A DNA stretch of 32,235 nt, taken from positions 1 to 32,235 of the IMG/VR virus record IMGVR_UViG_3300008450_000245. One strand, given 5' to 3'. Source of the stretch: a virus. The position numbers were made by a program, and so were the translations under genes. The notes under the pieces were generated by a model. The model had not been told where the DNA came from. It saw only the letters and a program-made list of their open reading frames with translations, and did no database searches. This document shows, in pieces, positions 10,563 through 31,780 of the stretch (the stretch's first letter is position 1; each line of letters opens with the position of its first letter).

Positions 10563-13500
10563 ATGGCAGAAATTAAAAATACATTTTTATCGTCTAAGAT
10601 GAATAAAGATCTTGACGATAGACTAGTACCTAACGGAGAATATATTGATGCTTTGAATATACAGGTTGGAAGATCTGAAACAAATGATGTAGGAGCATTA
10701 CAACCAATATTGGGTAACTCTAAAGAGCTTATATCATTAGAAACAAATACAACTCTTGTGTGTATAGGTACATTTATGGATAACCAAAATAATTGTATTT
10801 ATCAATTTTTAACAAATTATAAAGATCCAAACCCGGCCGTTATTACTTTGCCTTCTACAAGTAGAACAATGAAAATAACAGAATACAATTTAGATCTTGG
10901 AACATATACAACTTTAGTTAGTGGGTCATTTTTAAATTTTGCATATAATAAAGAATGTTTAATTTTAGGTGTAAATATAATAGAAGGTTTATTATATTGG
11001 ACTGACAATAGAAACCAGCCAAGAAAAATAAATATAAAAACAGCTAAATCAATACCTGGTTATTATACTAGAGAAGAACATATATCAGTTGCTAAATATG
11101 CTCCTGTGGATCCTATATTTATGTATAAAAAAGTATCCACAAAGATTACAGAAGCTAGTGTTCCTCCATTAGGAACTACTTTTGATGTTGAGGATGCAAC
11201 AGGCATTGAAGTTGGCATGACTTTAAACTATTCAGGGGCAACTTTGAATGACGCAAACATAGTGACTGAAATTAATGGCAATACTATAACTTGTTATTTA
11301 GCTATTAATCCAACGTTAAATGTAGGTGATAAAATATCTTTTTTATCTTCAACTATGACCAATGAATCCGATAATCCAAATTGGCCTGGTGATCCGGATT
11401 TTATAGAAGCTAAATATATTAGATTTAGTTATAGATTTAGATTTGATGATAATGAATATTCTGTTATGGCCCCTTTTACGCAAATAGCGTATATTCCAAA
11501 GCAGAAAGGATATTTTATAAAAGGGAACGAAGAGGATGCATATAAAAGTACGGTTATTAATTGGATGGAAAACAATGTGAATAACATTGAACTCATGATT
11601 CCATTGCCAGATGTTGCAAATAAAATAACTAGTAGTTATAAGATAAAAGAAATAGACGTATTGTATAAAGAGTCAGATTCAGCTGTTGTTAAGGTTTTAG
11701 AAACAATAGATTCAGCAGCATTACAATCTAATTCAACAAACAATATTTATATACAACAATACCAATCCCAAAACCCATATAAGACATTAACCGAAGCTCA
11801 AATAGTAAGAGTATATGACAAGGTGCCTGTAAGAGCTTTAGCTCAGGAAATAACAGGTAATAGAATAATATATGGTAATTTTTATGACAGATATACAGCT
11901 CCTGCTACAATTAATTATAATATAGGAGTATTTAAAAAAAATGTGGGATCTACAAATTACATAGAATACCCAAATCACACGTTAAAACAAAACAGAAATT
12001 ATCAAGTTGGAATTATATTGTCAGACAAGTTCGGCAGAAGTTCTTCAGTTATATTATCTTCCATAGACAAAAATGGACTTGATTTAGCGGGGTCTTTTTT
12101 CGGGGGATCTTCTATATACTCTTCTTATATAAAAGAAGGATCAGTTGATTTTAATGTAAAAAGCTGGATGGGTAATGCTTTATATATGGTAGTTAATGAT
12201 CCTATAACATCCAGTAGGAATATTCCTTCCGGTACTCCGGGTTTATATGCTCAACAGATAGGAAATGGATTCGAAATAGACCTTTTAACCCCTGTAATAA
12301 TTACTGATAGTGGTATTAGTTTTGAAGTAATTAGCGGAACAACTCCTTTAAGGGGACAATACTTGAGGGGACAGTATACAGATTATGTTAGAATTACTAA
12401 TATAACTCCTGGAGATTTACCAACCGATCCTCCTACATACAGTACAGATGGCAGGGCTAGTGACTTATATATTGAAAATCCTGATAATCTACCTGACACA
12501 AAATACGCATATACTATAAACCCAATAGGTTGGTATTCATATAAAGTGGTGGTTAGGCAGCAAGAACAGGATTACTATAACGTTTATCTTCCGGGTATAT
12601 TAAACGGTTATCCTAATGCTCAAACATTTGGATCACAGGTGACATATAGCCCTCAAGGTTTGCCTACTTTGGAGAATGCTATTGACTTTACAGTATTTCC
12701 TCAATCTGAGACTGGTAATACTGCTCATGCTGTATTAATAAACGATAATATAAACAAAGTGCCTCGAGATTTAACCGAGGTTGGCCCTGATCAAAAACAG
12801 TACAGAAGTAGTGTTGAATTATATGGTAGAGTATCAAATGGGAGCGTTGAACTTGGAGGCGAAGATGGGCTAGAAGCAATAGCTCCTCCTAATTATGACC
12901 AAAGAACAAATTACTTTAGTTATGATCCTTTAGGTGCTGATGGCGAGGCCTGGCTCTCTGTTGCTCCTGGGGACGGAATACAAAGCGTGGAAGCTAATGA
13001 ACCCATTCCAAATCCACCAGTAATCCCTCCAGACCCTTCTGCTCCACCTACTGTCCCTAACCCAGACGCTTGGTATGCAAACACAGTAGTTGTAAAAAAC
13101 GATAAACAAAATGGAGTTATACATTTTGCTCCTTTAAACATAATAAGAGGAACTAATGGTAGCCCAATATATAATCATTACATTATAACAAAAGCAGAAA
13201 ACCTACAATATTACCCATCTAGAAAAGCCGATGTGGTTACATCTATTGCTACCTCAAAAGAATTTAACTTTGTAGAAAACTCAGTTACAAACGTAAAAGG
13301 CACTGCTGGGTTAAACTTTTATCAAATGCAATCGGATCCATTAATAAGCAGGATTGCTACTGTTAATGAGATAGGAGTTACATCTGAAAAAGGTATGATA
13401 CCTTTTTTAGCGGTATATGAAACAAAACCCGTAGAATCTTTATTAAATATATTTTGGGAAACATCAACAACTGGGCTTATATCGGATTTAAATTGGGATG

Positions 13501-16388
13501 TATTAACTGGATATGAAGGGCCTGTAGCATTAACCGACCCCGAGTTTGAATTTTGGGAAGATCAAAACCCTAATGGCCTAGAATCAGGTACTGGTGATCC
13601 TGAGTCTCGTTATATAACAGACCCGTTTTTTCCTATTTCAAATTTAGGTATACTTTTAGATGATACTACATTAGAATCATTTACAGTGGAAGACTTAACT
13701 GGAGAAAATAAAACAGGTCTATTTGAGGTAATACAAAATACAACTCCACTTGATCCTGCACAAGGTTCTTATAGAATAAGAATTGCTAAAACGTCTAATT
13801 TTGTTTTTGGACCGCAGTCTTATCAAGAGGATAATTTTGTTTTTACATTAAATATCAAAAGAGTTACTCCAAATGGCACTTCGATAGTACCATTAGAAAT
13901 AACAGGGCGACTAGGCAATAGAATGCCTTATCTTTATCCAGAGGAGTCTTGTATAGACGGTTATTACAATAAAAATATATCTCAAGAAGATACATTTATA
14001 CAAACAATACAAGCTCGCAATGGTTCTTTTATTAACTCAGGAAATGCAGCAAATCAATATTTAAGATTTGAAATAATAAGTCAAAATCCACCTTCGTCAC
14101 CTGGCTATTTTTCTATAGATCCCGATAGTGGAGAATTAAGTTTGATTAATAGTTTAGTGCCAATAGGTTCATATCAGTTAGAAATAAAAGTTACTGATGC
14201 GGTAAACTTTGCTATAAATCCACCTGTGGGCGCCGATACAATAGATCCTTTAGAGGAATTCAGTAGTATGGCTCAAACATGTATAATTGTTATTACTGTA
14301 AACAACCCCCCTGTTAATACTTGGTTACAACCAGGATATAATTTAGCTTTAGAGAATCCACTAGGGTCGGTTTATCCGGCATTGCAGCAGCCATGTAGAG
14401 ATGTCACAACTTATAATTACCCCAATTGGCAACCTGCTGATGGTAGAATATTTGCTATAGATGCAATGTCTGTTCTTGATTATACACAATCCACAATAAA
14501 TATATCTATAAATAATGTTCCGTTACTTTCAGGATATTCTAGGGTTACTTCTCAATATAATTCTCAATTAGTTATTGGAATAAATATAGCCCCTAGTGTA
14601 AACATACCTGCCGGAGCATTCGTACAAATAAATATAGCCCCTGGTGAAAACTCACCTATAACTGATAAGTACGGCCTTTGGGTTGTAGCCGCAGAAAGGT
14701 TATTAGATAGAACATACGGGGCTTTTGACGGAGGCGATCCCGCTCCCGCCGAACTAGATCCAGATGACCCGGCTAACATTCCTTTCTTTGCTCAACTTCC
14801 AGCGGTTCCATTAATGTCAGTTCCTTTTGGTCAACAACCTGAAACAACAAAAGCATATAATACATTTGAAAATATAGAAACAAAAAACGCAGAAGTTTAT
14901 TTTGAGGGATTGGAACATGACATTGAGCCAAATGGATTGCTACAAGGTACATTGCGTTGGACTGTAAGACTATTTATAAGTAGTTATTTAAACCAAGGAG
15001 CAGATGGTCCTTGTCAAGATCTTACTACTGAAATAAAAGGATATGCTAGAATAATTATATTTAGAAGGCCAGCTGTTGACTCTAGATTTACAAATACAAA
15101 TCCATGGGAAATAGTTTCTGATAATAATAATGTTATAGGAACTGGAGCCATTGAAGCGGACAAAGGTAATTTTACTAGTGGATTAAGATCAAATGTCCCT
15201 ACTAACAATGAAAATATAGTTAATGATGACATATTATTAGGGGCAGAATTATTATGGGATTGCGGCGCTGAAAAAAGAGGATATAGAGAAGTAACATTTA
15301 CTACTGAAAATCCAGACGAGAATGCATATGAGTGGGCTGTAGCTGTTTGGTATAGAGATGAATCAAAGTTTGAGCAAACGGGCCCGATAACATCAGATGC
15401 TTGTAATTGTACATTAATAGATGTTTCAGAAAGAATGTATGTTACAGTGGCTGTTGAAGACGCTAATTATACGTATCCAGATTGGGAACCAGGGGATGAT
15501 AATGCACAAGGAGTTACTACGGCATATAAATATTACACAGGATTAGAATATGGTTTAAGTTCTGATAAGAAAACTTACGCTATTCCGTTTGAAGCGCAAA
15601 ACGCAAATATAGTTAATTATCAGTCTGACCCAAATACTGTTTATTCTGCCGTCCCTACTAATCCTAGTCTTGGGGAAACTGTAATAATTAAATTAACAGA
15701 TAATGATACACAAATCGCTCCTGGACTTTTTACTGAGTTCGGAATAGTATCAAGCTTTTGTTTTGTAGACCCTATAGATGGTAGAACTGTGGTAATTGTT
15801 GAATCTAATGGGTTTACTAGTATATCAGCAGGTATGCCAATTACATTTACACTTGTTAACCCGCTTGTAGACCCTAATTTATGCCCGCCAGGAACTCCTA
15901 TTCCTGCGCCTTCTAATTCAGGCATTATATATGCAACTACTCCAGAGGGTTCAGAAGTAGAGCAATTTTATGAGGATGAATTATTAACAACGCCTTGGAA
16001 TCCAACTGGTAATCCAGATGCTACAGACGCTTTTTATAATTTTACACAATGGGATACCCAGTATTTTAATACAGAGGTTTGTGATCTTAATGGAAAGCCT
16101 GAGCCTTTACAAGGTGAACCGGAAACAAGGCCTCAAACGTTTCCTTGGTGGAGCGCTAAAATGACGGCTTCAGGAAAAGTTATAAAACAACCTATTGGAA
16201 ATCCTCCAAACGACCATTATACAGTACAAACAGCATTAAGATTTGCAAATGCCGCTAATACTGGATTTCCAGACCCAGGTATATTATTAGGTAGAAATTT
16301 AAAAGAAAGAAGGCTTGGAGATCCTGATGGATGGGTACCGTATCCTTGTCTACCAGATTTACCAGGAAGTGGTGGAACTGGCCCATAA
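10563..16388 (+). CDS. Giant tail protein (tail nozzle/fibre-like), 1941 residues
   Basis: The N-terminus, NTFLSSKMNKDLDDRLVPNG then EYIDALNIQVGRSETNDVGA, is one I recognise at the start of very large tail proteins in marine and Bacteroidetes podoviruses. It leads into a propeller-like region containing LLYWTDNRNQPRKINI (about residues 143-158). A small beta domain appears inserted at residues 194-262. Further on are a tandem LRGQY duplication (596-605), a Pro-rich linker (about 812-836), a cadherin/Ig-like region (about 1130-1253, with FSIDPDSGELSLINS and GSYQLEIKVTDA), and a 16-residue tandem repeat at about 1340-1371 (INIAPSVN, INIAPGEN). The C-terminus is Pro/Gly-rich. It probably forms the distal tail nozzle or carries receptor-facing domains. 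No depolymerase catalytic motif was recognised. The alternative is a virion surface fibre anchored by its N-terminus. Confidence 0.78.
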   Translation: MAEIKNTFLSSKMNKDLDDRLVPNGEYIDALNIQVGRSETNDVGALQPILGNSKELISLETNTTLVCIGTFMDNQNNCIYQFLTNYKDPNPAVITLPSTSRTMKITEYNLDLGTYTTLVSGSFLNFAYNKECLILGVNIIEGLLYWTDNRNQPRKINIKTAKSIPGYYTREEHISVAKYAPVDPIFMYKKVSTKITEASVPPLGTTFDVEDATGIEVGMTLNYSGATLNDANIVTEINGNTITCYLAINPTLNVGDKISFLSSTMTNESDNPNWPGDPDFIEAKYIRFSYRFRFDDNEYSVMAPFTQIAYIPKQKGYFIKGNEEDAYKSTVINWMENNVNNIELMIPLPDVANKITSSYKIKEIDVLYKESDSAVVKVLETIDSAALQSNSTNNIYIQQYQSQNPYKTLTEAQIVRVYDKVPVRALAQEITGNRIIYGNFYDRYTAPATINYNIGVFKKNVGSTNYIEYPNHTLKQNRNYQVGIILSDKFGRSSSVILSSIDKNGLDLAGSFFGGSSIYSSYIKEGSVDFNVKSWMGNALYMVVNDPITSSRNIPSGTPGLYAQQIGNGFEIDLLTPVIITDSGISFEVISGTTPLRGQYLRGQYTDYVRITNITPGDLPTDPPTYSTDGRASDLYIENPDNLPDTKYAYTINPIGWYSYKVVVRQQEQDYYNVYLPGILNGYPNAQTFGSQVTYSPQGLPTLENAIDFTVFPQSETGNTAHAVLINDNINKVPRDLTEVGPDQKQYRSSVELYGRVSNGSVELGGEDGLEAIAPPNYDQRTNYFSYDPLGADGEAWLSVAPGDGIQSVEANEPIPNPPVIPPDPSAPPTVPNPDAWYANTVVVKNDKQNGVIHFAPLNIIRGTNGSPIYNHYIITKAENLQYYPSRKADVVTSIATSKEFNFVENSVTNVKGTAGLNFYQMQSDPLISRIATVNEIGVTSEKGMIPFLAVYETKPVESLLNIFWETSTTGLISDLNWDVLTGYEGPVALTDPEFEFWEDQNPNGLESGTGDPESRYITDPFFPISNLGILLDDTTLESFTVEDLTGENKTGLFEVIQNTTPLDPAQGSYRIRIAKTSNFVFGPQSYQEDNFVFTLNIKRVTPNGTSIVPLEITGRLGNRMPYLYPEESCIDGYYNKNISQEDTFIQTIQARNGSFINSGNAANQYLRFEIISQNPPSSPGYFSIDPDSGELSLINSLVPIGSYQLEIKVTDAVNFAINPPVGADTIDPLEEFSSMAQTCIIVITVNNPPVNTWLQPGYNLALENPLGSVYPALQQPCRDVTTYNYPNWQPADGRIFAIDAMSVLDYTQSTINISINNVPLLSGYSRVTSQYNSQLVIGINIAPSVNIPAGAFVQINIAPGENSPITDKYGLWVVAAERLLDRTYGAFDGGDPAPAELDPDDPANIPFFAQLPAVPLMSVPFGQQPETTKAYNTFENIETKNAEVYFEGLEHDIEPNGLLQGTLRWTVRLFISSYLNQGADGPCQDLTTEIKGYARIIIFRRPAVDSRFTNTNPWEIVSDNNNVIGTGAIEADKGNFTSGLRSNVPTNNENIVNDDILLGAELLWDCGAEKRGYREVTFTTENPDENAYEWAVAVWYRDESKFEQTGPITSDACNCTLIDVSERMYVTVAVEDANYTYPDWEPGDDNAQGVTTAYKYYTGLEYGLSSDKKTYAIPFEAQNANIVNYQSDPNTVYSAVPTNPSLGETVIIKLTDNDTQIAPGLFTEFGIVSSFCFVDPIDGRTVVIVESNGFTSISAGMPITFTLVNPLVDPNLCPPGTPIPAPSNSGIIYATTPEGSEVEQFYEDELLTTPWNPTGNPDATDAFYNFTQWDTQYFNTEVCDLNGKPEPLQGEPETRPQTFPWWSAKMTASGKVIKQPIGNPPNDHYTVQTALRFANAANTGFPDPGILLGRNLKERRLGDPDGWVPYPCLPDLPGSGGTGP
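12348..12377 (+). repeat. Tandem 15-base repeat inside the giant tail gene
   Basis: Two adjacent 15-base units encode LRGQY LRGQY (residues 596-605 of the 1941-residue protein). They differ at third positions (TTA/TTG, CAA/CAG, TAC/TAT), so the duplication is old or kept by selection on the protein rather than fresh slippage. Confidence 0.8.
14575..14676 (+). repeat. Imperfect 48-base tandem repeat inside the giant tail gene
   Basis: The segment TAAATATAGCCCCT at 14581 recurs at 14629, exactly 48 bases (16 codons) later, with similar flanks. The encoded units begin INIAPSVN and INIAPGEN. The in-frame spacing suggests duplication of a beta-hairpin-sized unit in the tail protein. Confidence 0.65.
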
Positions 16389-21051: not shown

Positions 21052-24000
21052 ATGTTTGACTACGTAGACAGTTTAGGTAACACAATTACATACGATCAAA
21101 TTACTAAAATGGCGAAGGAGGGTAAAACCTCCTTTGACGCTATAGTTAAAAAAAATGGGTATAAACCAAAACCTAAAGCGACTAAAGCAAAAGCGGGGGC
21201 CGAACTTTTAGGAATAGACACTACAACTAAAAAAGTTCCTGTTGTAACTACTGAAGAAAAGAAAACTCCTGTTGCTAAAAAAACTGTAATAGAAAACAAA
21301 CCAACATTTGCCCCAAGTATTGATCCATTTGCAGGTACAAACCTTGCTCAGCCTGTAGTAGGCGGTAGAGAAATGTTGTTATCTGAAGAATATAAAAAAG
21401 AAAGAGCAAGAAAATTACAAGAAGAAAAAAAACAACTTGAAATAGACGAAGCAGCATTAAAAGCAAGAGAAGCTAAAAGAGCTAATAAAAAACTTTTAAC
21501 AGAAAATAAAACAGTATTTGACAAAGCAAATGAATATATAAATAGTATTGTATTAAATACAGACGAAAAAGAAGAACAAAGCAAAAAGGCTGTAGACGAA
21601 ATAAATGGAAATACATTTCTTGAGAAAGCAAAAGGAGCTGCTGCAATATGGGCAGGTGCTATTGTAGACTCCGCTACTTTAGGTGCTCTTAGTGATGGGA
21701 AATTTGATTTAGCAGATCGCTGGCGAGAGAATTGGTCAATAAATAAAGAATACACCGATAAAGCTAAGGAGGAATTAAAAAAGAAAAAAGCAGCATGGGA
21801 AATACAAAATAAAAAATACCCATTATATAAAATACCAGAGCCAGTTATTGACGAAAGCAGTGTTTATGACTTGGCTATAAAACTACGCCAACAAGATAAT
21901 GAAAAAGCTCTTATTATACAAAAAGAACAAGAATGGTTTGATGCTAACGAAGACTTCATAAATCAAAATTATAAGCCTAAAGGAGGTCTTTATAAAGCCG
22001 GGACGATTAAGGATATTCCTAAGCTTTCGGACCCATTGTCTGTTGTGAATATTACCAAAAGTTTTAATACTACTAATAAAGATATAATAAAAACGTTTAG
22101 TAAAAATGAAGTAGCAAAAGCTGAAGCGGCAATATTAAAAGATCAAAAGAAAGAAGAAGCCCTAGAAGACTTTAAATACCAAAGCTTTGTTAAATTAAAC
22201 AAAATAAGTGAGCAAGCTAATCAATTAGCTAAAGATAACCAAGCTGTTCCTGAAGAATTAATAAAAGAATACAATAATAGTTTAAACTATTTTAAATATT
22301 TTTCTGAAAGACAAACGGATATAAACACGGAATTATCTAAAACTTATGAGAAATTTAATGATTACGAAAATATTGTAGATAGTTTTAATAGAGATTGGGG
22401 GCGCATTAGTAATATAATTGAGTCTGGAAATCAAATATTTCAAACTGCCGCTACTGGTATTGAAGGGGCTTTAGATTGGGCCATGAAATATAATAGTATG
22501 GCAGGAGCTATAAATGGTATGGCTTATCTATTTGACAAAGAATCTCCTATTACTGAAGAAGCTACTAGTTTTTGGGGCAATGTAGCATTAAATAGCAAAA
22601 AAGAACAAGAAGAAAGGGCTCTTGAGTTTGCTAAACAAAATCCAGACTTGTCATTTTCGGATTACTCTTTAAAAGATTTTGCGGATTTTGCTGTAAAAGA
22701 AACAATGAATGTAGGTAGTGTTTTAGCTCACTTTTCTAATCCAGTCGGCATTGGTTTATTTGTCGCAGAAGCAGGAGGTAATAAGCAAGTTGAAATGCTA
22801 GAAGAAATGGAGCGTGAGCCAGGTAAATATAATGAGTTCCAAAAATTTGCTTTACCATTAACATATGCGGGGGTTGATGCCGTACTTGCTTATGGTATGA
22901 AAGGGCAAATAGATAAAGCTAAACTTTTATATGCAGCAGGTAATAACACTCAAAAAAATATTATAAGAAAAGGTTTTTTCCAATACTTAACTCCGTCAGA
23001 AAAACTCGCGGCAGGAGTTAAAGACTGGGGAGGAGCGGTATTGCATAGTAATGCCATAATGGGTGGAGCTGTTTTTTCTAAGAATGCGTTGAATATAATT
23101 GTTGGCGAAGCTGACAAATCCACTATCTTTGACGGATTAGATGGGCATTTAGTTGCATCGGCAACATTTTTTGCGGGGTTAACTAAAGGAGCACCTTTAG
23201 TAGCTTCTGAAGCTATGTATAGATTAAGCGGCGATAAAGCCATTGATACACAATCAAAAAAGATAGTCGGGTATGAAGAAAAGCTTAGAAGTACAATTTC
23301 TAGTAATGAAAAAAAGGTAATACAGGAGTTATTAGCTAAAGCTAAATTGGATTTAAATATAATGTTAGAAGGTAAAAACGAAAAACTAAAAACATTAAAT
23401 AATAAACAATGGAGCAGTCTAATTTCCTCAAATAAAAAAAGCCAAGAGATTTTAAAACAAGGAAAAGAAATTAAAAATGACAAATCTATTTCTGATGAAA
23501 TAAAAAGAGATAGATTAAAAGAATTAGAAAAAGAGTTTAACGAATATCAAAAGCAAAAAACAGAGTTATTTGAATTTGGATATAAGGTACAATATGAGGC
23601 AATGTCAAAAACCGTACGCGGTACTCAATTAAGAGATTACTTTAGAGGACAAGCTGAAAGAATAGTACAAGAAGAAGTAAAAATAAGAGAAGAAAAAGGA
23701 GAAAAAATTGATCCTAAAAAAACAGAGGATATTATAAGATATTACTCAGTACTATTATCAGAAAGAGCTAATGCGAATGCCGTTGAGATGTATGCTAATA
23801 ATGAAAAAGCAATAAAGTTTAATGGAGTAGAAGAGTTTACTGGTAATAAACCTTTTATTTTTGGTGATGCTGCAAATAATTTAACCGTGCTAGAATTTGC
23901 TGATGGTAAATTGCTGCAAAAATATTTTGATGAAAACCCAGATCAAAGGGTTAAAAAAGAAGGAGAAAAAAACTCTGATGGCACACAAAAGTATTATACT

Positions 24001-27000
24001 GCAAATGAAATTTTAAGATTAAATTATGGTATAACTTTACTTAATGGCCAAAAAATAGTAAGTTATGAAAGTGCTGCAGTTGCGGGAAGAAAGTTTACAG
24101 GTATACATGAAACTGGCCATGACTTATTTAAGAGTTTTACCGCCATGGAACCAGCTAAGCAAAAGAAAATCTTAGATGAATTTCTTGACGAATTAAGTAA
24201 TGAAGATAGAGCAGCTTTAGAAAAAAGATTAGAAGGTTATAGTGAAACTGAGCGTGCGGAAAACATAGACGAGTACTTTACTCAGTATATTGAAATAGCT
24301 TTAGAAAAGAAAGGAAAAAAAGGAGATCTTAAAGCAGCAGAAGAAATAGAAACTGATGGAAGTATTGATTTTACCTCTGGTAAAGATATAAAGCAATACA
24401 TAGACAATGTTCTTCCTGCTGAGTACGAAACAGGTAACCGTAGCGCTCGAACAAAGGAATTACAAAAGAAAGCATCTGAAATTAGGGCCCAAGAAGCAAA
24501 AAGCAGTGCTTCTTTTTCAAAAGCTAAAGTTGAGGAAGTTCAAAAAAAGATAGATAAACTAGAAGAACAATTTGACAATGGAGAAATTGATTACGACGAT
24601 TATACAGGTAGACTTGAAGCGTTTGAAAAAGACTTAGAAAAAGCAAAAAAATTACCTGAAGAAGCAACGAAACCTACAATTAAAAAAGAAGTTACAGAGG
24701 AAGAGGCAGATAAAGAAATAATAAAAAATGAAAGAGGATCTGTATCTTCTGATAAAGTTCAAAAAATATACGAGGAACAAGGAGTAAACGGCGCGCAAGC
24801 TATTATAGATCTATTTAAACCTATTACTAAAAAATTAGTAAATAAAAGAATGGACGCTCCAGGGTTTGATAGAGAATTGTTAACAAGCGAAATAGAAACT
24901 GGAGATGGTGGTCTTTTTTACCTTATTAGAAGTTATAAACCTGAAAAGGGAGTTCCATTAGCAGCCTATATAAATAAACAATTACCATTAAGAGCAATTG
25001 CGGCGTCAAGAAGAGTATTAGATAAAGACTTTAGTAAAGACGTAACAGAAGAAAAAGGATTAATTGCTGAAGAAACAAAAATTCAAGCGGAAGAAAAACC
25101 AATATATAAAGATGCATTAGAATCAAATGTATTTGAGCCTAAAGTCTTAGAAGATGCTAATAAAAAAATATTAACTGTGGTAAGAACAATGAAAGCTAGG
25201 GTAGATGCTCCAGTTTCATTGAACAGAACAGTAAGTCCTTTTATTGCAGAATTAAAAGATGAAATAGGAAAATTACTTGACATTGATATTAAAACAGCAA
25301 TGGGAGGTAAAAAAGATGGGCAACTTGAAAGTTGGGCTTTAAAAAATAAAAAATACTTTCTTGAAAATATGACTACTACATTTTTAATGGGTAAAGATGG
25401 TCAAGGGGGAGTGCCTCAAGCAATTCAAAAACGTATTGGTGGAAAGTGGGTTAGTTATCCGGAATGGGTTGGTCAAAAAATTGATAGAGAAGCAGTTACA
25501 ACTGATCAAGCGGGTAGAACAGCTGGGCATGAATTAACTAGGCGTCTGCCTAATGTAGCTAATAATGTGTCTGACAAAGTTTTTTTAGGGCAATTAATTG
25601 GTCCAGATGGTAATCCAATTAGAGGTAGAAAAGAATCTTGGTCTAAAGCTATTGCTGATGAACTTACATTGGATATTGTAAAAAATGACATTAAAAAAAA
25701 TGGACCTATATCTGATGCTATTAAATATAACCAAGAAGCAAAGGGGGTTTCAATAACTGATGCATTTAATAATGAAATATTAAGGCAAAGCGAAAGAGGT
25801 AATGTAAAATATTCAAAAAGTTTAAAAGAAACTTTTAAAAAATCTCAAGATTACCTTAATATTGGATTTGAAATATTTAAAAATGATTTAAAAAGACCGG
25901 GGGTTACGGGTGATGAGACTATAAAAATTATTAATGATTTTATTAAAAATGAAGGGCGATCTATAAGAACTATGGCTTATACTATGTTTGGTAAAGGGGC
26001 CGAATTAACTAAAAATGAAAAATTATTTGAATATATTAAGGATCATATAGACACATATTCTCCATATAAAGGGGAGTTACTAGATGAAAATCATTATAGA
26101 TTAAAGAATATAGGTCAAAACAAAAGTATATTTTTTGGTAAAACAAAGGTTCCAACATGGCTAGATACCGAATCCTTAAAAAAGAATTGGGAAAAACTTA
26201 AACCTAAAGCAACCGAAGAAGCGGTAATAGCCACTGATGAGCTTGTTGATAAATTAAAATCATTAAAAAAACAAAATTATTCTGATAAAGAAATAGAAGA
26301 TTATTTTAAATTAATAAACTTTGATCAAAGAGGATTATCGCGTAAAGTTTCAAAACCTGGGATTGGTGTTGAAGGAATAACAAAAAAACAAAAAGCTTAT
26401 TTAGAGCATAATCCGCCAAAATATGACATAGTAAGAAAAGCTATGGACTTTTATAAAGGAAGAATTACTGAACAAGAATTAAGAGATTTTATAAATAACG
26501 CAAAAGTAAATTTAGTTCCAGAAGGCCTTAATGACGTATTACCTGCTTATGCTGAAGGTAAAAATAGAATGGACGATCCTGCTGTTGTTTTATATCTAAA
26601 AAAATTAATGGATAATGGGCAGAAAATTACAAATTTAGAAAGTGAGTATGGATCTATTGAAAACTTTAATGCAAAAGTAAAATTAGCAGAGTCAGGTGTA
26701 AATTCAAAAGAAACATTAGCTAATATTGATAGAATAATGGCTATTGATAGATCGTTAACAGCAAAAAAGTCAAAAGCTGAAAAAGGTATTTCTGTTTTTG
26801 ATTTTGATGACACGGTTGGGTTAACAAAAGGTAGTGTGCTATACACAATGCCTGATGGCAAAAAAGGCAAATTAAATGCTGAAGAATTTGCTAAAAATGG
26901 ATCTAAACTTTTAAACGAAGGAGCGGAATTTGATTTTTCTGAATTCAGTAAAGTTGTAGGCGGTAAGCCAGGCCCTATGGTTGAAAAGATGAAGAAGATG

Positions 27001-29535
27001 ATCGGTAAATTTGGGCCAGATAATTTTTTTATTCTTACAGCTCGCCCTGCTGATGCCGCTGGGCCTATCCATGAATTCTTATCATCAATAGGTATTGATA
27101 TCCCATTAGAAAACATAACAGGGTTAGGAAATAGCACAGGAAAAGCAAAAGCGGACTGGATGGTTGGAAAAGCTGCTGAAGGATATAATGATTTTTACTT
27201 TGCTGATGATGCTCCACAAAATGTTAAAGCAGTGCGTGACGCGTTAGATGTGTTAGATGTTAAATCAAAAATTCAACAAGCCAAACTTAAGTTTAGTAAA
27301 GCCATGTCCGATGACTTCAATAAAATTATTGAAGAGGTTAAAGGGGTAGAAAGTTATAAAGTATATTCTGATATTACAGCAAGAAGGAAAGGTATTAATA
27401 AAAATAAATTTGACTTTTATGTTCCGCCATCTGCGGCTGATTTTGAATTATTGCTTTATAATTTTATGGGTAAAGGAGCAGAAGGAAAGGCTCATAAAAA
27501 ATTCTTCCAAGATGCTTTAATAAAACCATATATAAACGGAGTTGATTTAATGGACTCAGTTAGACAGTCTATAAAGAAAGACTATAAAGCGTTGTTAAAG
27601 TCCTTCCCTGAGGTCAAAAAAGAACTTGAAAAATTAACTCCTAATAAAGATTTTACATACGATCAAGCTATGCGTGTTGCAATATGGGATCAATATGGGG
27701 TAGAAATACCTGGTTTATCAGCAAGAGATAAAACTTATTTATCTGATCTTGTTAATAATAATCCAGAACTTGCCGCTTTCAAAGATGGATTAATTGTAAT
27801 GGGTAGACAAAAAGAAGGATGGTTACCGCCAGATAATTTTTGGGATGCTAATACTATTGTTTCAGATTTATATAATATAACAGAAGGATCAGGTAGAAAA
27901 AAATTCTTAGGTGAATTTATTGAAAATGCTGAAAATATTTTTGGTAAATGGGAAGATGGTAGATTAGTTGGTCCTAACATGAATAAGGTAGAAGCTACTT
28001 ATGGAACAAATGTTAGAGAAGCATTAGAAGATTCTATATACAGGATGACTAATGGTAAAAACAGAAGTTTTGGTCAGGATAAAGAGAGTGCTGCTTGGTC
28101 TAGTTGGGTAAATGGTTCTACGGGATCTATCATGTTCTTAAATACTCGATCCGCTGCGTTACAGTTATTAGGAGCAGTTAACTTTTTAAATTTTAGAGAT
28201 AACAATCCGTATAATGCAGCTAAAGCATTTGCGAACCAAAAACAATACTGGAAAGATTTTTCTCGTATATGGAATTCAGATAAGTTAAAAGAAAGACGTG
28301 GCGGACTAAGAGAAGATGTTGCCTCTGCTGAGATTGCTAATGCGGCGGCAGGAAGTAAAAACAAGGTTGTTGCAGTAACATCGTATTTATTAAAAATAGG
28401 TTATACACCGACACAAATAGCAGATAGTTTTGCTATTGCTTCTGGAGGTGCTCCTTTTTATAGAAATAGAATTAAAACTTATTTAAAAGAAGGATTACCA
28501 GAAGTAGAAGCGGAAGCAAAAGCTTGGGAAGAGTTCTCAAAAGTTTCAGATGAAACACAACAATCAGGAGATCCAAAAGATATATCAAAACAACAGGCAA
28601 GTAGCGCCGGTAGAATATTACTTGTATTCCAAAACTTTACCATGCAACAGTCTCGTATAGTTAAAAAAGCTGCATTAGATCTTAAAAATGGAAGAGGAGA
28701 TGCCAAAACTAACATATCTAAAATAGTTTATTATTTAGCCGTACAAAATATAATGTTCTCCGCATTGCAACAAGGTTTATTTGCTGTTATGTTTGATGAG
28801 GAAAGTGAAGAGGATAAAAAAGCTAAAAATAAAAAAACAAAAGAGGATGCGGCTTATGACGTTGCAAACGGGGTATTAGATAGTATACTTAGAGGTACAG
28901 GGTTTGTTGGAGGAGTTACTGCAACATTAAAAAATACTGTTATTAAATACTTTGAGGAACAAGCAAAAAAACAAAAAGCAGAATATGCAAAAGTTGTTTT
29001 AGAAGCAGCAAATATGTCACCCCCTATTGGTTCTAAATTTAGAAAAATATATAGTGCACTACAACAAACTAAATATGACAAAGATTTAATAAAAGAAAGA
29101 GGATGGGGAGTTATGCAAGACGGGCGAGTTCATTTGGGCCCTATGTACTCTGTAAGTGGAAAACTTGTTGAAGCAACAACTAACTTTCCAATGGACCGAT
29201 TAGTTAATAAAGTTGAAAATGTATCACAAGCATTTAATTCTGATAACACTGCAGTACAAAGACTTGCTGTAGGAATGGGTTATTCACCTTGGACAGTTGG
29301 TATTGAAGGAACCAAAGGAGATATACTCATAAAAGAAACTGCTAAAGCAACACGTAAAGAAGAAGGTATAATAAAAGCTATTGAAACAAGAGAAGCAACT
29401 AAAGATAGCATACGAAGCTTAAAAGGAGAAGGCAGACTAAATTATCTTAAACAACAAAGAAAAGAAAAAATAGAAGCAAGAAAAAGAAAAATAGAAAGGC
29501 AAGAGAAAAGAAATAAAAGAAGAATGGGAGAATAA
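21052..29535 (+). CDS. Giant polyvalent ejection protein with metallopeptidase, sigma-like and HAD domains
   Basis: 2827 residues, probably carried in the virion and injected with DNA. From the N-terminus: a short start domain; Lys/Glu-rich linkers and coiled coil (about 100-480); a more hydrophobic Gly/Ala region (about 480-740); more coiled coil; then a zinc-metallopeptidase motif HETGH (H1019-H1023) with downstream acidic residues E1070/E1074. Residues of about 1247-1330 resemble sigma region 2 (LFYLIRSYKPEKGVPLAAYI). A HAD-type domain follows, with FDFDDT (D1917, D1919), LTARP (T1996), K2033 and FADDA (D2052, D2053). Near the end is a hydrophobic helix (IVYYLAVQNIMFSALQQGLF) and a basic Arg/Lys tail. 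The HAD and C-terminal modules are ones I recognise from other long phage virion proteins. It is the last of three ejection-type genes, like T7 gp16. There are no internal stops and no sign of fusion error. Confidence 0.85.
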   Translation: MFDYVDSLGNTITYDQITKMAKEGKTSFDAIVKKNGYKPKPKATKAKAGAELLGIDTTTKKVPVVTTEEKKTPVAKKTVIENKPTFAPSIDPFAGTNLAQPVVGGREMLLSEEYKKERARKLQEEKKQLEIDEAALKAREAKRANKKLLTENKTVFDKANEYINSIVLNTDEKEEQSKKAVDEINGNTFLEKAKGAAAIWAGAIVDSATLGALSDGKFDLADRWRENWSINKEYTDKAKEELKKKKAAWEIQNKKYPLYKIPEPVIDESSVYDLAIKLRQQDNEKALIIQKEQEWFDANEDFINQNYKPKGGLYKAGTIKDIPKLSDPLSVVNITKSFNTTNKDIIKTFSKNEVAKAEAAILKDQKKEEALEDFKYQSFVKLNKISEQANQLAKDNQAVPEELIKEYNNSLNYFKYFSERQTDINTELSKTYEKFNDYENIVDSFNRDWGRISNIIESGNQIFQTAATGIEGALDWAMKYNSMAGAINGMAYLFDKESPITEEATSFWGNVALNSKKEQEERALEFAKQNPDLSFSDYSLKDFADFAVKETMNVGSVLAHFSNPVGIGLFVAEAGGNKQVEMLEEMEREPGKYNEFQKFALPLTYAGVDAVLAYGMKGQIDKAKLLYAAGNNTQKNIIRKGFFQYLTPSEKLAAGVKDWGGAVLHSNAIMGGAVFSKNALNIIVGEADKSTIFDGLDGHLVASATFFAGLTKGAPLVASEAMYRLSGDKAIDTQSKKIVGYEEKLRSTISSNEKKVIQELLAKAKLDLNIMLEGKNEKLKTLNNKQWSSLISSNKKSQEILKQGKEIKNDKSISDEIKRDRLKELEKEFNEYQKQKTELFEFGYKVQYEAMSKTVRGTQLRDYFRGQAERIVQEEVKIREEKGEKIDPKKTEDIIRYYSVLLSERANANAVEMYANNEKAIKFNGVEEFTGNKPFIFGDAANNLTVLEFADGKLLQKYFDENPDQRVKKEGEKNSDGTQKYYTANEILRLNYGITLLNGQKIVSYESAAVAGRKFTGIHETGHDLFKSFTAMEPAKQKKILDEFLDELSNEDRAALEKRLEGYSETERAENIDEYFTQYIEIALEKKGKKGDLKAAEEIETDGSIDFTSGKDIKQYIDNVLPAEYETGNRSARTKELQKKASEIRAQEAKSSASFSKAKVEEVQKKIDKLEEQFDNGEIDYDDYTGRLEAFEKDLEKAKKLPEEATKPTIKKEVTEEEADKEIIKNERGSVSSDKVQKIYEEQGVNGAQAIIDLFKPITKKLVNKRMDAPGFDRELLTSEIETGDGGLFYLIRSYKPEKGVPLAAYINKQLPLRAIAASRRVLDKDFSKDVTEEKGLIAEETKIQAEEKPIYKDALESNVFEPKVLEDANKKILTVVRTMKARVDAPVSLNRTVSPFIAELKDEIGKLLDIDIKTAMGGKKDGQLESWALKNKKYFLENMTTTFLMGKDGQGGVPQAIQKRIGGKWVSYPEWVGQKIDREAVTTDQAGRTAGHELTRRLPNVANNVSDKVFLGQLIGPDGNPIRGRKESWSKAIADELTLDIVKNDIKKNGPISDAIKYNQEAKGVSITDAFNNEILRQSERGNVKYSKSLKETFKKSQDYLNIGFEIFKNDLKRPGVTGDETIKIINDFIKNEGRSIRTMAYTMFGKGAELTKNEKLFEYIKDHIDTYSPYKGELLDENHYRLKNIGQNKSIFFGKTKVPTWLDTESLKKNWEKLKPKATEEAVIATDELVDKLKSLKKQNYSDKEIEDYFKLINFDQRGLSRKVSKPGIGVEGITKKQKAYLEHNPPKYDIVRKAMDFYKGRITEQELRDFINNAKVNLVPEGLNDVLPAYAEGKNRMDDPAVVLYLKKLMDNGQKITNLESEYGSIENFNAKVKLAESGVNSKETLANIDRIMAIDRSLTAKKSKAEKGISVFDFDDTVGLTKGSVLYTMPDGKKGKLNAEEFAKNGSKLLNEGAEFDFSEFSKVVGGKPGPMVEKMKKMIGKFGPDNFFILTARPADAAGPIHEFLSSIGIDIPLENITGLGNSTGKAKADWMVGKAAEGYNDFYFADDAPQNVKAVRDALDVLDVKSKIQQAKLKFSKAMSDDFNKIIEEVKGVESYKVYSDITARRKGINKNKFDFYVPPSAADFELLLYNFMGKGAEGKAHKKFFQDALIKPYINGVDLMDSVRQSIKKDYKALLKSFPEVKKELEKLTPNKDFTYDQAMRVAIWDQYGVEIPGLSARDKTYLSDLVNNNPELAAFKDGLIVMGRQKEGWLPPDNFWDANTIVSDLYNITEGSGRKKFLGEFIENAENIFGKWEDGRLVGPNMNKVEATYGTNVREALEDSIYRMTNGKNRSFGQDKESAAWSSWVNGSTGSIMFLNTRSAALQLLGAVNFLNFRDNNPYNAAKAFANQKQYWKDFSRIWNSDKLKERRGGLREDVASAEIANAAAGSKNKVVAVTSYLLKIGYTPTQIADSFAIASGGAPFYRNRIKTYLKEGLPEVEAEAKAWEEFSKVSDETQQSGDPKDISKQQASSAGRILLVFQNFTMQQSRIVKKAALDLKNGRGDAKTNISKIVYYLAVQNIMFSALQQGLFAVMFDEESEEDKKAKNKKTKEDAAYDVANGVLDSILRGTGFVGGVTATLKNTVIKYFEEQAKKQKAEYAKVVLEAANMSPPIGSKFRKIYSALQQTKYDKDLIKERGWGVMQDGRVHLGPMYSVSGKLVEATTNFPMDRLVNKVENVSQAFNSDNTAVQRLAVGMGYSPWTVGIEGTKGDILIKETAKATRKEEGIIKAIETREATKDSIRSLKGEGRLNYLKQQRKEKIEARKRKIERQEKRNKRRMGE

Positions 29536-29908: not shown

Positions 29909-31780
29909 CTATACAACTTCACAATTACCTCCTCCACATGCTTGTGAATCTGAAAAGTTTGTATTGTCTTGAACCTCAATTACTTTAGACAGATCAACAT
30001 TATGTAATGTAGACATCATCTGTTCGTATACTTCCTTAGTACAATCTTCAAATGGTGTTTGTTTATAAGTTCCGCCGTGATAAGGCAATACAGATAAACC
30101 ATTATAGTATTCTTTATTTGCCCACATCCATTCACCAACAATTTTCCACTCATCATCACGTACAGAAACAGTACAAGAAACATTATGTGTATTGTTACCT
30201 TTATCATGACCAGTCTTAACCCAATCTTTAGAAATCAATTTAACTCTTTCTAATAGATCTAATGTTGACTCATGACGCGTTATGGCTCCATCTGGAGCTT
30301 TCTGAGGCACAGAAACAACTGCTTGTAATGTTGGATTAAAATATTCATCTTCGATCAGTTCTGGATGATTTATTGCAAGATATGAATAGATTGCTTCATT
30401 CTTGCCTAAACGCATACGGCGAATATAATAGTCGTTATGCCAAGCGTGAATACCGCTAGAAGTGCCAAGTACAAGGCTAGTAGTTCCTGCCGGCTTAACT
30501 GCGGTGGTTCTGGCCGCCTTGTTGATATTAAGAGCCGACGCAATAATATTATTTGTTTCCTTAACAACCTGTGCTGCTTCTTCATAATTTAAACATTGTA
30601 TATTGTGTTTTGATGCAATACCTGTCATTGATACTCCAAGCAATGCATCTTTTTCTGTGTTTTTTCTCCATATATCTCTTAAGTAGTGGAAGTCTGAATA
30701 TGATGCTTGCAATGTTCCAATGAATGATGCAGCCGAAGCTCTTGCATTAAAATCTTCTTGACTTTCAATATCTGCCATATTAATCTCCGTAAGATTACAA
30801 AATTGATATGGTCTTAAAGCAATCTCACAGCAAGGATTGGTCCCCCAGTCTTTATCATTAGTTAAGTAAATACCCGGTTCGCCGGATCCTGATGCCTCAA
30901 TACGTTCCCATACTTTATCAAATGTTTTCTTATCAATCTTATGACGTAACAAAACAACTGAATTATTAGATCTACCTCGTTGTGGATTATCTTCCCACCA
31001 GTTACCAGCTTTACAATTTAGCATTGCATCTGAATCAAGATCAAATAAACTAATCATTGCTGCTCTACGAATACCACCAGCTAAAACTGCGTCGGCAATA
31101 TGACACTGAATATCATGGCACTCAATATCTGTTAGTTTAGATCTATCTTCCTTTTCACGTAATACAGCTTCAATCTTTACCAATGCAATTCTTAATGGCT
31201 CAGGGCCCGGTGCTTTACCTCCAGCTGTTATAAGTAAAGCTCCTTTAGGTCTTATATCAGAGAAGTCAAACTCTATATGCGAAGTTAGCCCTCCTGTATA
31301 AGATTTAAATAAAGCCTTAACTGCATCTGCCCATCCAATTATACTATCCTGAACAACATACTTTTTTTTACGATTGTAATTAGGTTTTCTGATTTCAGGA
31401 AGTTTCTCAATGTGGTGGTTCTGGACCGAATAACCCACTCCAGTCCCTCCAAGAAGTAAAAACATAGTCTCAGAAAAACTATGAATACTATCAACAGGTA
31501 AGAAAGCACAGTTATAAACGCGAGCATTATTAAGCTCAATAGCTTTACCACCAAACTGTAAGCTTCGCATCGAAGGTAAAACTTTTTTAGTAAATACAAA
31601 ATTCTTGTAAACTTGTTCAATTGATTCTTTCATTTTCGGGAACTTAGTAGTGTGCATTTCCATGTTGCGTGTTACTAATTCATCCCAGGTTTCTCTTCTC
31701 TCTTTTTCCGGTAAATATTTAGCATACTTAGTGTATACTGTAATGTCACTTAATATTTGCTTATCTAAGCTTAAACTCAT
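29909..31780 (-). CDS. nrdJ: Class II (adenosylcobalamin-dependent) ribonucleotide reductase
   Basis: 623 residues. It reduces ribonucleotides to deoxyribonucleotides for phage DNA synthesis. Key residues are visible: the first redox Cys in ARVYNCAFLP (C91); the glycine-rich GGTGVGYSVQ; the active-site loop NPCCEIAL, with thiyl-radical Cys C317 and N315/E319; the second redox Cys in PYQFCNL (C328); the phosphate-binding PAGTTSLVLGTSSG; and a C-terminal C-x4-C (C615, C620) that shuttles electrons from thioredoxin. NGLSVLPYHGGTYKQTPFED fits monomeric class II enzymes. No radical-generating beta subunit lies nearby and the Tyr pair of class I is not seen near the C-terminus, so B12 dependence is the best reading. 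It is shorter than the Lactobacillus enzyme (739 residues), as is common in phages. No intein is present. A 14-base gap follows the preceding small gene. Confidence 0.92.
   Translation of the reverse strand: MSLSLDKQILSDITVYTKYAKYLPEKERRETWDELVTRNMEMHTTKFPKMKESIEQVYKNFVFTKKVLPSMRSLQFGGKAIELNNARVYNCAFLPVDSIHSFSETMFLLLGGTGVGYSVQNHHIEKLPEIRKPNYNRKKKYVVQDSIIGWADAVKALFKSYTGGLTSHIEFDFSDIRPKGALLITAGGKAPGPEPLRIALVKIEAVLREKEDRSKLTDIECHDIQCHIADAVLAGGIRRAAMISLFDLDSDAMLNCKAGNWWEDNPQRGRSNNSVVLLRHKIDKKTFDKVWERIEASGSGEPGIYLTNDKDWGTNPCCEIALRPYQFCNLTEINMADIESQEDFNARASAASFIGTLQASYSDFHYLRDIWRKNTEKDALLGVSMTGIASKHNIQCLNYEEAAQVVKETNNIIASALNINKAARTTAVKPAGTTSLVLGTSSGIHAWHNDYYIRRMRLGKNEAIYSYLAINHPELIEDEYFNPTLQAVVSVPQKAPDGAITRHESTLDLLERVKLISKDWVKTGHDKGNNTHNVSCTVSVRDDEWKIVGEWMWANKEYYNGLSVLPYHGGTYKQTPFEDCTKEVYEQMMSTLHNVDLSKVIEVQDNTNFSDSQACGGGNCEVV

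Follow-up and report, generated by a model that had tools for sequence, protein, structure and literature searches.

A giant modular protein of an uncultivated podovirus with predicted zincin, sigma-like and HAD modules, and its likeness to polyvalent phage proteins

Introduction

Polyvalent proteins are late phage polypeptides in which unrelated activities are joined in one chain and exchanged as modules, and both delivery and self-processing have been proposed for them (PMC5512222). A HExxH zincin with a glutamate on a second helix is their common, although not obligatory, hub, ART-type domains are among their partners, and the hypothesis as framed by Iyer et al. 2017 (PMC5512222) covers both self-processing by the zincin and the jump-starting of transcription. 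In the main text of that paper, "sigma", "phosphatase" and "haloacid" each have 0 occurrences as word starts. A second point of comparison is the virion RNA polymerase of phage N4 (gp50), a late protein of about 3500 aa that is ejected at infection. Its N-terminal part is considered to cross the membrane, and the chain further holds the enzyme region, a zincin and, at the C-terminus, a large helical domain (PMC12633501).

The window analysed here is the whole stretch of 32,235 nucleotides of IMG/VR record IMGVR_UViG_3300008450_000245, a 32 kb record of an uncultivated virus. The preliminary description had taken the giant protein encoded in it for the best candidate in the window for a little-described system, a virion-borne early take-over package whose cargo might be released by its own protease. 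On comparison with the literature this view gave way, since Iyer et al. 2017 had already put forward the same idea as the polyvalent-protein hypothesis. The giant protein fits this known, little-studied class, members of which are thought to be injected at infection. Relative to the main text of that paper, the sigma region-2-like and HAD/Pnkp-like modules are additions, and the C-terminal block of the window protein, which is without a Pfam match, sets it apart from the described members.

Gene position, domain plan and host

The features of the giant gene were as follows.

21052..29535, plus strand: whole giant ORF P0001, final gene of the late structural operon
21052..21354, plus strand: N-terminal tip, residues 1-101, kept in relative L006
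21355..24021, plus strand: replaceable N-terminal segment, residues 102-990, without known family
24031..24309, plus strand: predicted zincin metallopeptidase core, residues 994-1086, with HETGH and third ligand E1074
24310..24735, plus strand: charged linker, residues 1087-1228, model confidence low in parts, holding the mosaic junction
24736..25032, plus strand: sigma-70 region-2-like domain, residues 1229-1327, from VIA, hhalign and column identity
25033..25821, plus strand: companion domain after the sigma-like part, residues 1328-1590, model largely confident, no known relative
25822..26772, plus strand: replaceable linker, residues 1591-1907, differing in L006 and most others
26773..27276, plus strand: predicted HAD phosphatase module, residues 1908-2075, from motifs, structural matches and conservation
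27283..29331, plus strand: conserved helical C-terminal block, residues 2078-2760, about 680 residues
29419..29532, plus strand: C-terminal tail rich in Lys, Arg and Glu, residues 2790-2827, which is no membrane helix

The ORF was uninterrupted over its 2827 codons, in agreement with the earlier reading of a single polypeptide. It starts 9 nt past the end of the preceding late ORF (the median gap to the upstream ORF in 162 relatives was 11 nt), and genes for TerL, portal and structural proteins lie upstream on the same strand, so that it is a phage gene beside late virion genes, as is usual for polyvalent proteins. From this gene position we infer that the product is a virion protein. A ribonucleotide reductase gene (29909-31780, minus strand) is convergent to the giant gene, and its DNA is 84-88% identical to that of relatives L015 and L018.

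Since the terminase, portal and capsid genes of the window match those of Flavobacterium, Cellulophaga and Maribacter podoviruses and of the uncultivated podovirus ctfjg026 (TerL identity to the latter, 65%), the podovirus most likely infects a member of the Bacteroidota; its lineage is of an aquatic type. The uncultivated viruses that carry the family are likewise related to flavobacterial podoviruses. Some matches to the C-terminal block in genome assemblies fall in Bacteroidota metagenome bins and are probably misbinned phage contigs. Family phage contigs were also found in the bins of an Aliivibrio MAG (JAAGZR01; L250, L251, L259 and L261) and a Woesearchaeota MAG (PBPJ01; L253, L255 and L257); neither is a likely host, and these assignments are probably binning errors.

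Zincin, sigma-like and HAD modules

The preliminary description had claimed protease, sigma-like and HAD modules in one chain, with the HETGH motif N-terminal to the other two. All three were recovered, the zincin and HAD modules through motif conservation and the sigma-like module through its predicted fold, and the order was as described (HETGH at residues 1019-1023, sigma-like part at 1229-1327, HAD core at 1916-2053). As in polyvalent proteins, at least two disparate predicted activities are thus combined in one chain. No supported Pfam domain was found in the whole giant protein or in 23 N-terminal segments, the named polyvalent domain families were not found in the window protein, and a PDB sequence search with zincin/sigma and HAD/C-terminal profiles returned nothing useful.

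The predicted zincin residues are H1019, E1020 and H1023 of HETGH (24106-24120) and the third ligand E1074 (24271-24273), which lies on a predicted helix and completes the arrangement of the polyvalent hub. In 146 aligned segments E1020, H1023 and E1074 were kept throughout and H1019 in 142, and residues 1041-1219 matched phrog_8246 (E 2e-6). Both the zincin and the HAD active sites were intact in nearly all of about 150 unique relatives, and at the sequence level neither HETGH nor the HAD motifs can be called chance motifs.

The HAD motifs were FDFDDT (1916-1921), ILTARP (with T1996), K2033 and DD (2052-2053). These are the four motifs expected of a HAD phosphatase, and the Asp/Asp/Thr/Lys/Asp-Asp set was nearly invariant, being present in 141-154 of 154 sequences per position with mostly gaps in the rest. 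With the predicted model, all 50 of the 50 VIA matches listed look HAD-fold and are headed by bacterial Pnkp1 (Z 10.8) and T4 Pnkp (Z 10.0), yet these Z scores were tied with those of other HAD enzymes; the module also matched phrog_415 (polynucleotide kinase) with E 0.0025. Its nearest known fold therefore resembles that of the polynucleotide kinase/phosphatases, as far as a predicted model can tell. Unlike T4 Pnkp and Pnkp1, the window's predicted phosphatase sits in a giant protein and is without a kinase. Neither of the two predicted models gave a significant match with Foldseek alone (E > 0.2 for both). The VIA lists were taken up by matches to the sigma and HAD modules and bear hardly at all on the fold of the zincin or of the C-terminal block.

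Several relatives carry additional pieces in or next to the HAD module. In relative L148 (10170-11291) a polynucleotide-kinase-type P-loop domain is inserted in it (AAA_33, 3.7e-16; phrog_505, 3.5e-12), which recalls the kinase/phosphatase pairing of T4 Pnkp. In L017, L126, L128 and L133, motif I is followed by a YHGAPKG...FFATD piece that resembles the ADP-ribosyltransferases of polyvalent proteins (ART-PolyVal; L126, E 3e-4, under the Pfam cut-off; L017, E 0.069). Of the named polyvalent domain families, LPD14 had a match in L010 (E 0.0015), also under the Pfam cut-off. An insert of about 190 residues between HAD and C-terminal block in L017, L018 and others matched phrog_16075 (unknown function) with 4e-5; a GNAT identity, proposed for it by eye, was confirmed by no library and was dropped.

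For the sigma-like part (residues 1229-1327), the predicted model was mostly of high confidence, and all 50 of the 50 VIA matches listed, which concern mainly model residues 243-349, were sigma factors, the best of them reaching Z 10.0 with an rmsd of 2.3 over 90 residues. Foldseek on the same model was not significant (E 0.67), and hhalign against E. coli RpoD, RpoS and RpoH aligned exactly region 2.2-2.3 (E 0.0018). Mean column identity over the domain was 66% (alignment A3). A sigma-70 region-2 fold is accordingly well supported for the model. The function is not well supported, because the Trp pair of region 2.3 involved in promoter melting is absent (NKQL or NKYL stands at its positions when the alignment of region 2.2 is continued without gaps), and because only some region 2.2 residues are kept while several are lost. 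No sigma family match was listed for residues 980-1600 and no region 4 was found, and in a further difference from RpoD, RpoS and RpoH the domain is fixed inside a giant protein. About half of the family had no detected copy, and the copies of L011, L014, L026 and L077 were degenerate. No report of a virion protein with a sigma domain was found in the literature searched, which is not proof of absence.

C-terminal block, linkers and N-terminal segment

In an alignment of 40 sequences the C-terminal block showed dozens of invariant columns, and it had no sequence match in Pfam, PHROG or PDB. Nearly all complete ORFs contained it, and those without it that were examined were either frame-broken or Elemovirus gp18, a different giant protein. 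No isolate carrying it was found; the family is large and widespread in uncultivated viruses. The hydrophobic C-terminal helix of the preliminary description proved absent, as the last 38 residues are rich in Lys, Arg and Glu and the most hydrophobic stretch of the C-terminal half (2561-2581, about 250 residues from the end) reached a mean Kyte-Doolittle value of just 1.26 over 19 residues. Its Lys/Glu-rich linkers held for the zincin–sigma linker (Lys+Glu 27-28%) and not clearly for the sigma–HAD linker (18-27%), the rest of the protein having 10-32% when the last 27 residues are excluded. Coiled coils are plausible, judged from long charged helices. Moderately hydrophobic stretches were located in the N-terminal segment, at residues 195-215, 552-575 and 666-719, and 70% of members have such N-terminal stretches.

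The plan recalls that of N4 gp50 in its N-terminal part, which is probably membrane-associated, in its enzyme region and in a zincin with a large helical domain C-terminal to it that has no known relatives (PMC12633501). It differs in that the window zincin precedes sigma-like and HAD modules; no T7-type RNA polymerase domain was matched by Pfam in the giant protein, and hhalign matched no window module to the modules of N4 gp50.

Exchange of modules among relatives

Scans showed that at least 590 viral stretches encode the HAD module and at least 241 the sigma-like module. Of the 167 unique complete ORFs in which any module was seen, 73 had all four parts (the zincin, the sigma-like and HAD modules and the C-terminal block), 60 were without sigma and 7 without HAD. 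In 19 ORFs the HAD module and the C-terminal block alone were seen; this group includes frame-broken ORFs, and divergence may have hidden some zincins. Over the whole set of 167 the module order was never violated. Sigma presence changed 26 times on the C-terminal tree, which is a maximum, as some diverged copies may have escaped detection. The sigma module, the HAD module and the N-terminal approximately 1000 residues are optional or replaceable parts.

Pairwise comparisons placed the exchange more precisely. The window and L002 were 89.5% identical in DNA over residues 1153-2780, with only about 20-30% aligned protein identity before residue 1153, whereas the first 604 and 510 residues of the window were shared with L024 and L030, respectively, at 87-93% DNA identity. 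L006 has only three parts in common with the window, namely residues 1-101 (the tip), residues 1210-1542 (the sigma block) and all those from 1901 onwards; DNA identity in the tip was about 89% over residues 1-61 and 73% over 75-101, and the next approximately 1100 residues differ. A mosaic junction hence lies in the charged linker, between residue 1153 (L002) and about 1210 (L006, L015). As this main junction falls just after the zincin, in the exchange between window and L002 the protease goes with the N-terminal segment and not with the presumed cargo.

Over 147 ORFs, the starts of shared blocks clustered at 1150-1250 and 1900-1950 and their ends at 1300-1350, 1550-1600 and 2050-2100, positions that were chosen after the data had been seen and in ORFs that, being related, are not independent. 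Further edges within the C-terminal block (starts 2300-2400, ends 2550-2600) matched no module border, and the edges may mark either recombination or drops in conservation. The preliminary description had proposed that domain order be compared across relatives to see whether modules move independently; the outcome was positive, with block edges near domain edges, a fixed order and frequent loss or replacement.

Three relatives have a broken giant ORF (L008, 12960-13060; L065, 9990-10060; L081, 9830-10010). These gene splits were considered as natural boundaries between cargo and chassis and were rejected, because the first is a frame change at the HAD start, the second a probable homopolymer frameshift in HAD motif I and the third a tandem duplication. 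All three are probably assembly errors or decayed genes.

Possible role at infection

By analogy with the described systems, the reading that we favour, if by a modest margin over doubt, is that of a modular polyvalent podovirus protein that is packaged in the head, ejected with the DNA and active early in the host. The C-terminal block would act as a chassis for packaging or ejection, like the large C-terminal region of the N4 enzyme, and the N-terminal segment with its hydrophobic stretches might help in crossing the envelope. Once inside, the zincin could trim its own chain or cut a host protein. The sigma-like part could bias transcription towards early phage genes by touching RNA polymerase or promoter DNA. 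The HAD part could act like Pnkp and dephosphorylate damaged ends of RNA or DNA, ends that may have been broken by defence nucleases. End repair is suggested by the likeness to Pnkp and the kinase-like insert of L148. Self-cleavage and engagement of RNA polymerase are the least certain steps, and the contact of the sigma-like part with polymerase or promoter DNA is the weakest of all because of the residues lost. A more specific version is to be considered unlikely: ahead of all phage gene expression, an injected sigma-region-2-like piece, which the zincin sets free or activates, would act on host RNA polymerase or on the incoming DNA, together with a Pnkp-like phosphatase that would repair ends against nuclease-based defence.

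Within the favoured reading of an ejected polyvalent protein, and compatible with it, the zincin may be an effector that cuts host proteins and leaves its own chain unprocessed. Host targets are one option listed by Iyer et al. 2017, and the N4 enzyme has a zincin and is yet packaged uncut (PMC5512222); in the exchange between window and L002, moreover, the part with sigma, HAD and C-terminal block is common to both, and the zincin, which lies N-terminal of the junction, is not. Zincins nevertheless recur beside many unrelated partners, as would be expected of self-processing enzymes (PMC5512222), and we regard the effector role as a possibility of less than even weight. It was also conceivable that the giant protein is an ejection or conduit protein whose enzyme-like modules serve assembly or envelope passage, with a zincin that cuts virion or periplasmic targets and a sigma part that is a structural remnant. 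This would agree with the C-terminal block as the sole universal part, with the hydrophobic N-terminal stretches, with the loss of canonical sigma contact and melting residues, and with the 93% identity of HAD and C-terminal block to L002 as against 54-60% for neighbouring tail proteins. The complete Pnkp-like HAD site, the kinase-like insert of L148 and the ART-like inserts of L017 and L126 are, however, hard to fit to such a role, which we judge rather doubtful. Most improbable of these readings is a late protein that stays unpackaged and acts during assembly as a maturation protease and host-modifying factor: the giant proteins in the same slot of phi46:3 and phi13:2 are annotated hypothetical amid structural neighbours, but those of Elemovirus (gp18) and phi38:1 (gp101) are annotated structural, and the window gene itself lies within a structural operon.

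If the proposed steps of the favoured polyvalent reading hold, a single ejected phage protein would bring along an end-repair phosphatase together with a transcription-factor-like module that is ready for use. The mosaic cut points at about 1153-1210, 1550-1590, 1900 and 2075 are usable for expressing the modules separately, and the role of polyvalent zincins and their partners at entry is therefore directly testable.

Same-slot giant proteins and a second variable late gene

The cultured phages with a giant protein in the same slot back a virion role unevenly. The only link detected to their giant proteins was the Elemovirus zincin, which resembles that of the window (E 9.8e-5); the C-terminal match in Panino was weak (E 0.054), and a scan for bridging relatives found none. 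Elemovirus gp18 and the ctfjg026 protein share with the window gene its position in a syntenic late operon and zincin or HExxH motifs, whereas HAD, sigma-like module and C-terminal block are undetectable in them despite TerL identities of 45-65%. In ctfjg026 (L083, 741-12320, minus strand) the slot encodes a protein of 3859 aa with two HExxH motifs; as judged from sequence, the slot has been kept and the protein replaced.

In the window a 1941-aa structural ORF (10563-16388) aligned over just about 9-40% with most relatives and over 92% with L030, and is a second rapidly changing giant late gene.
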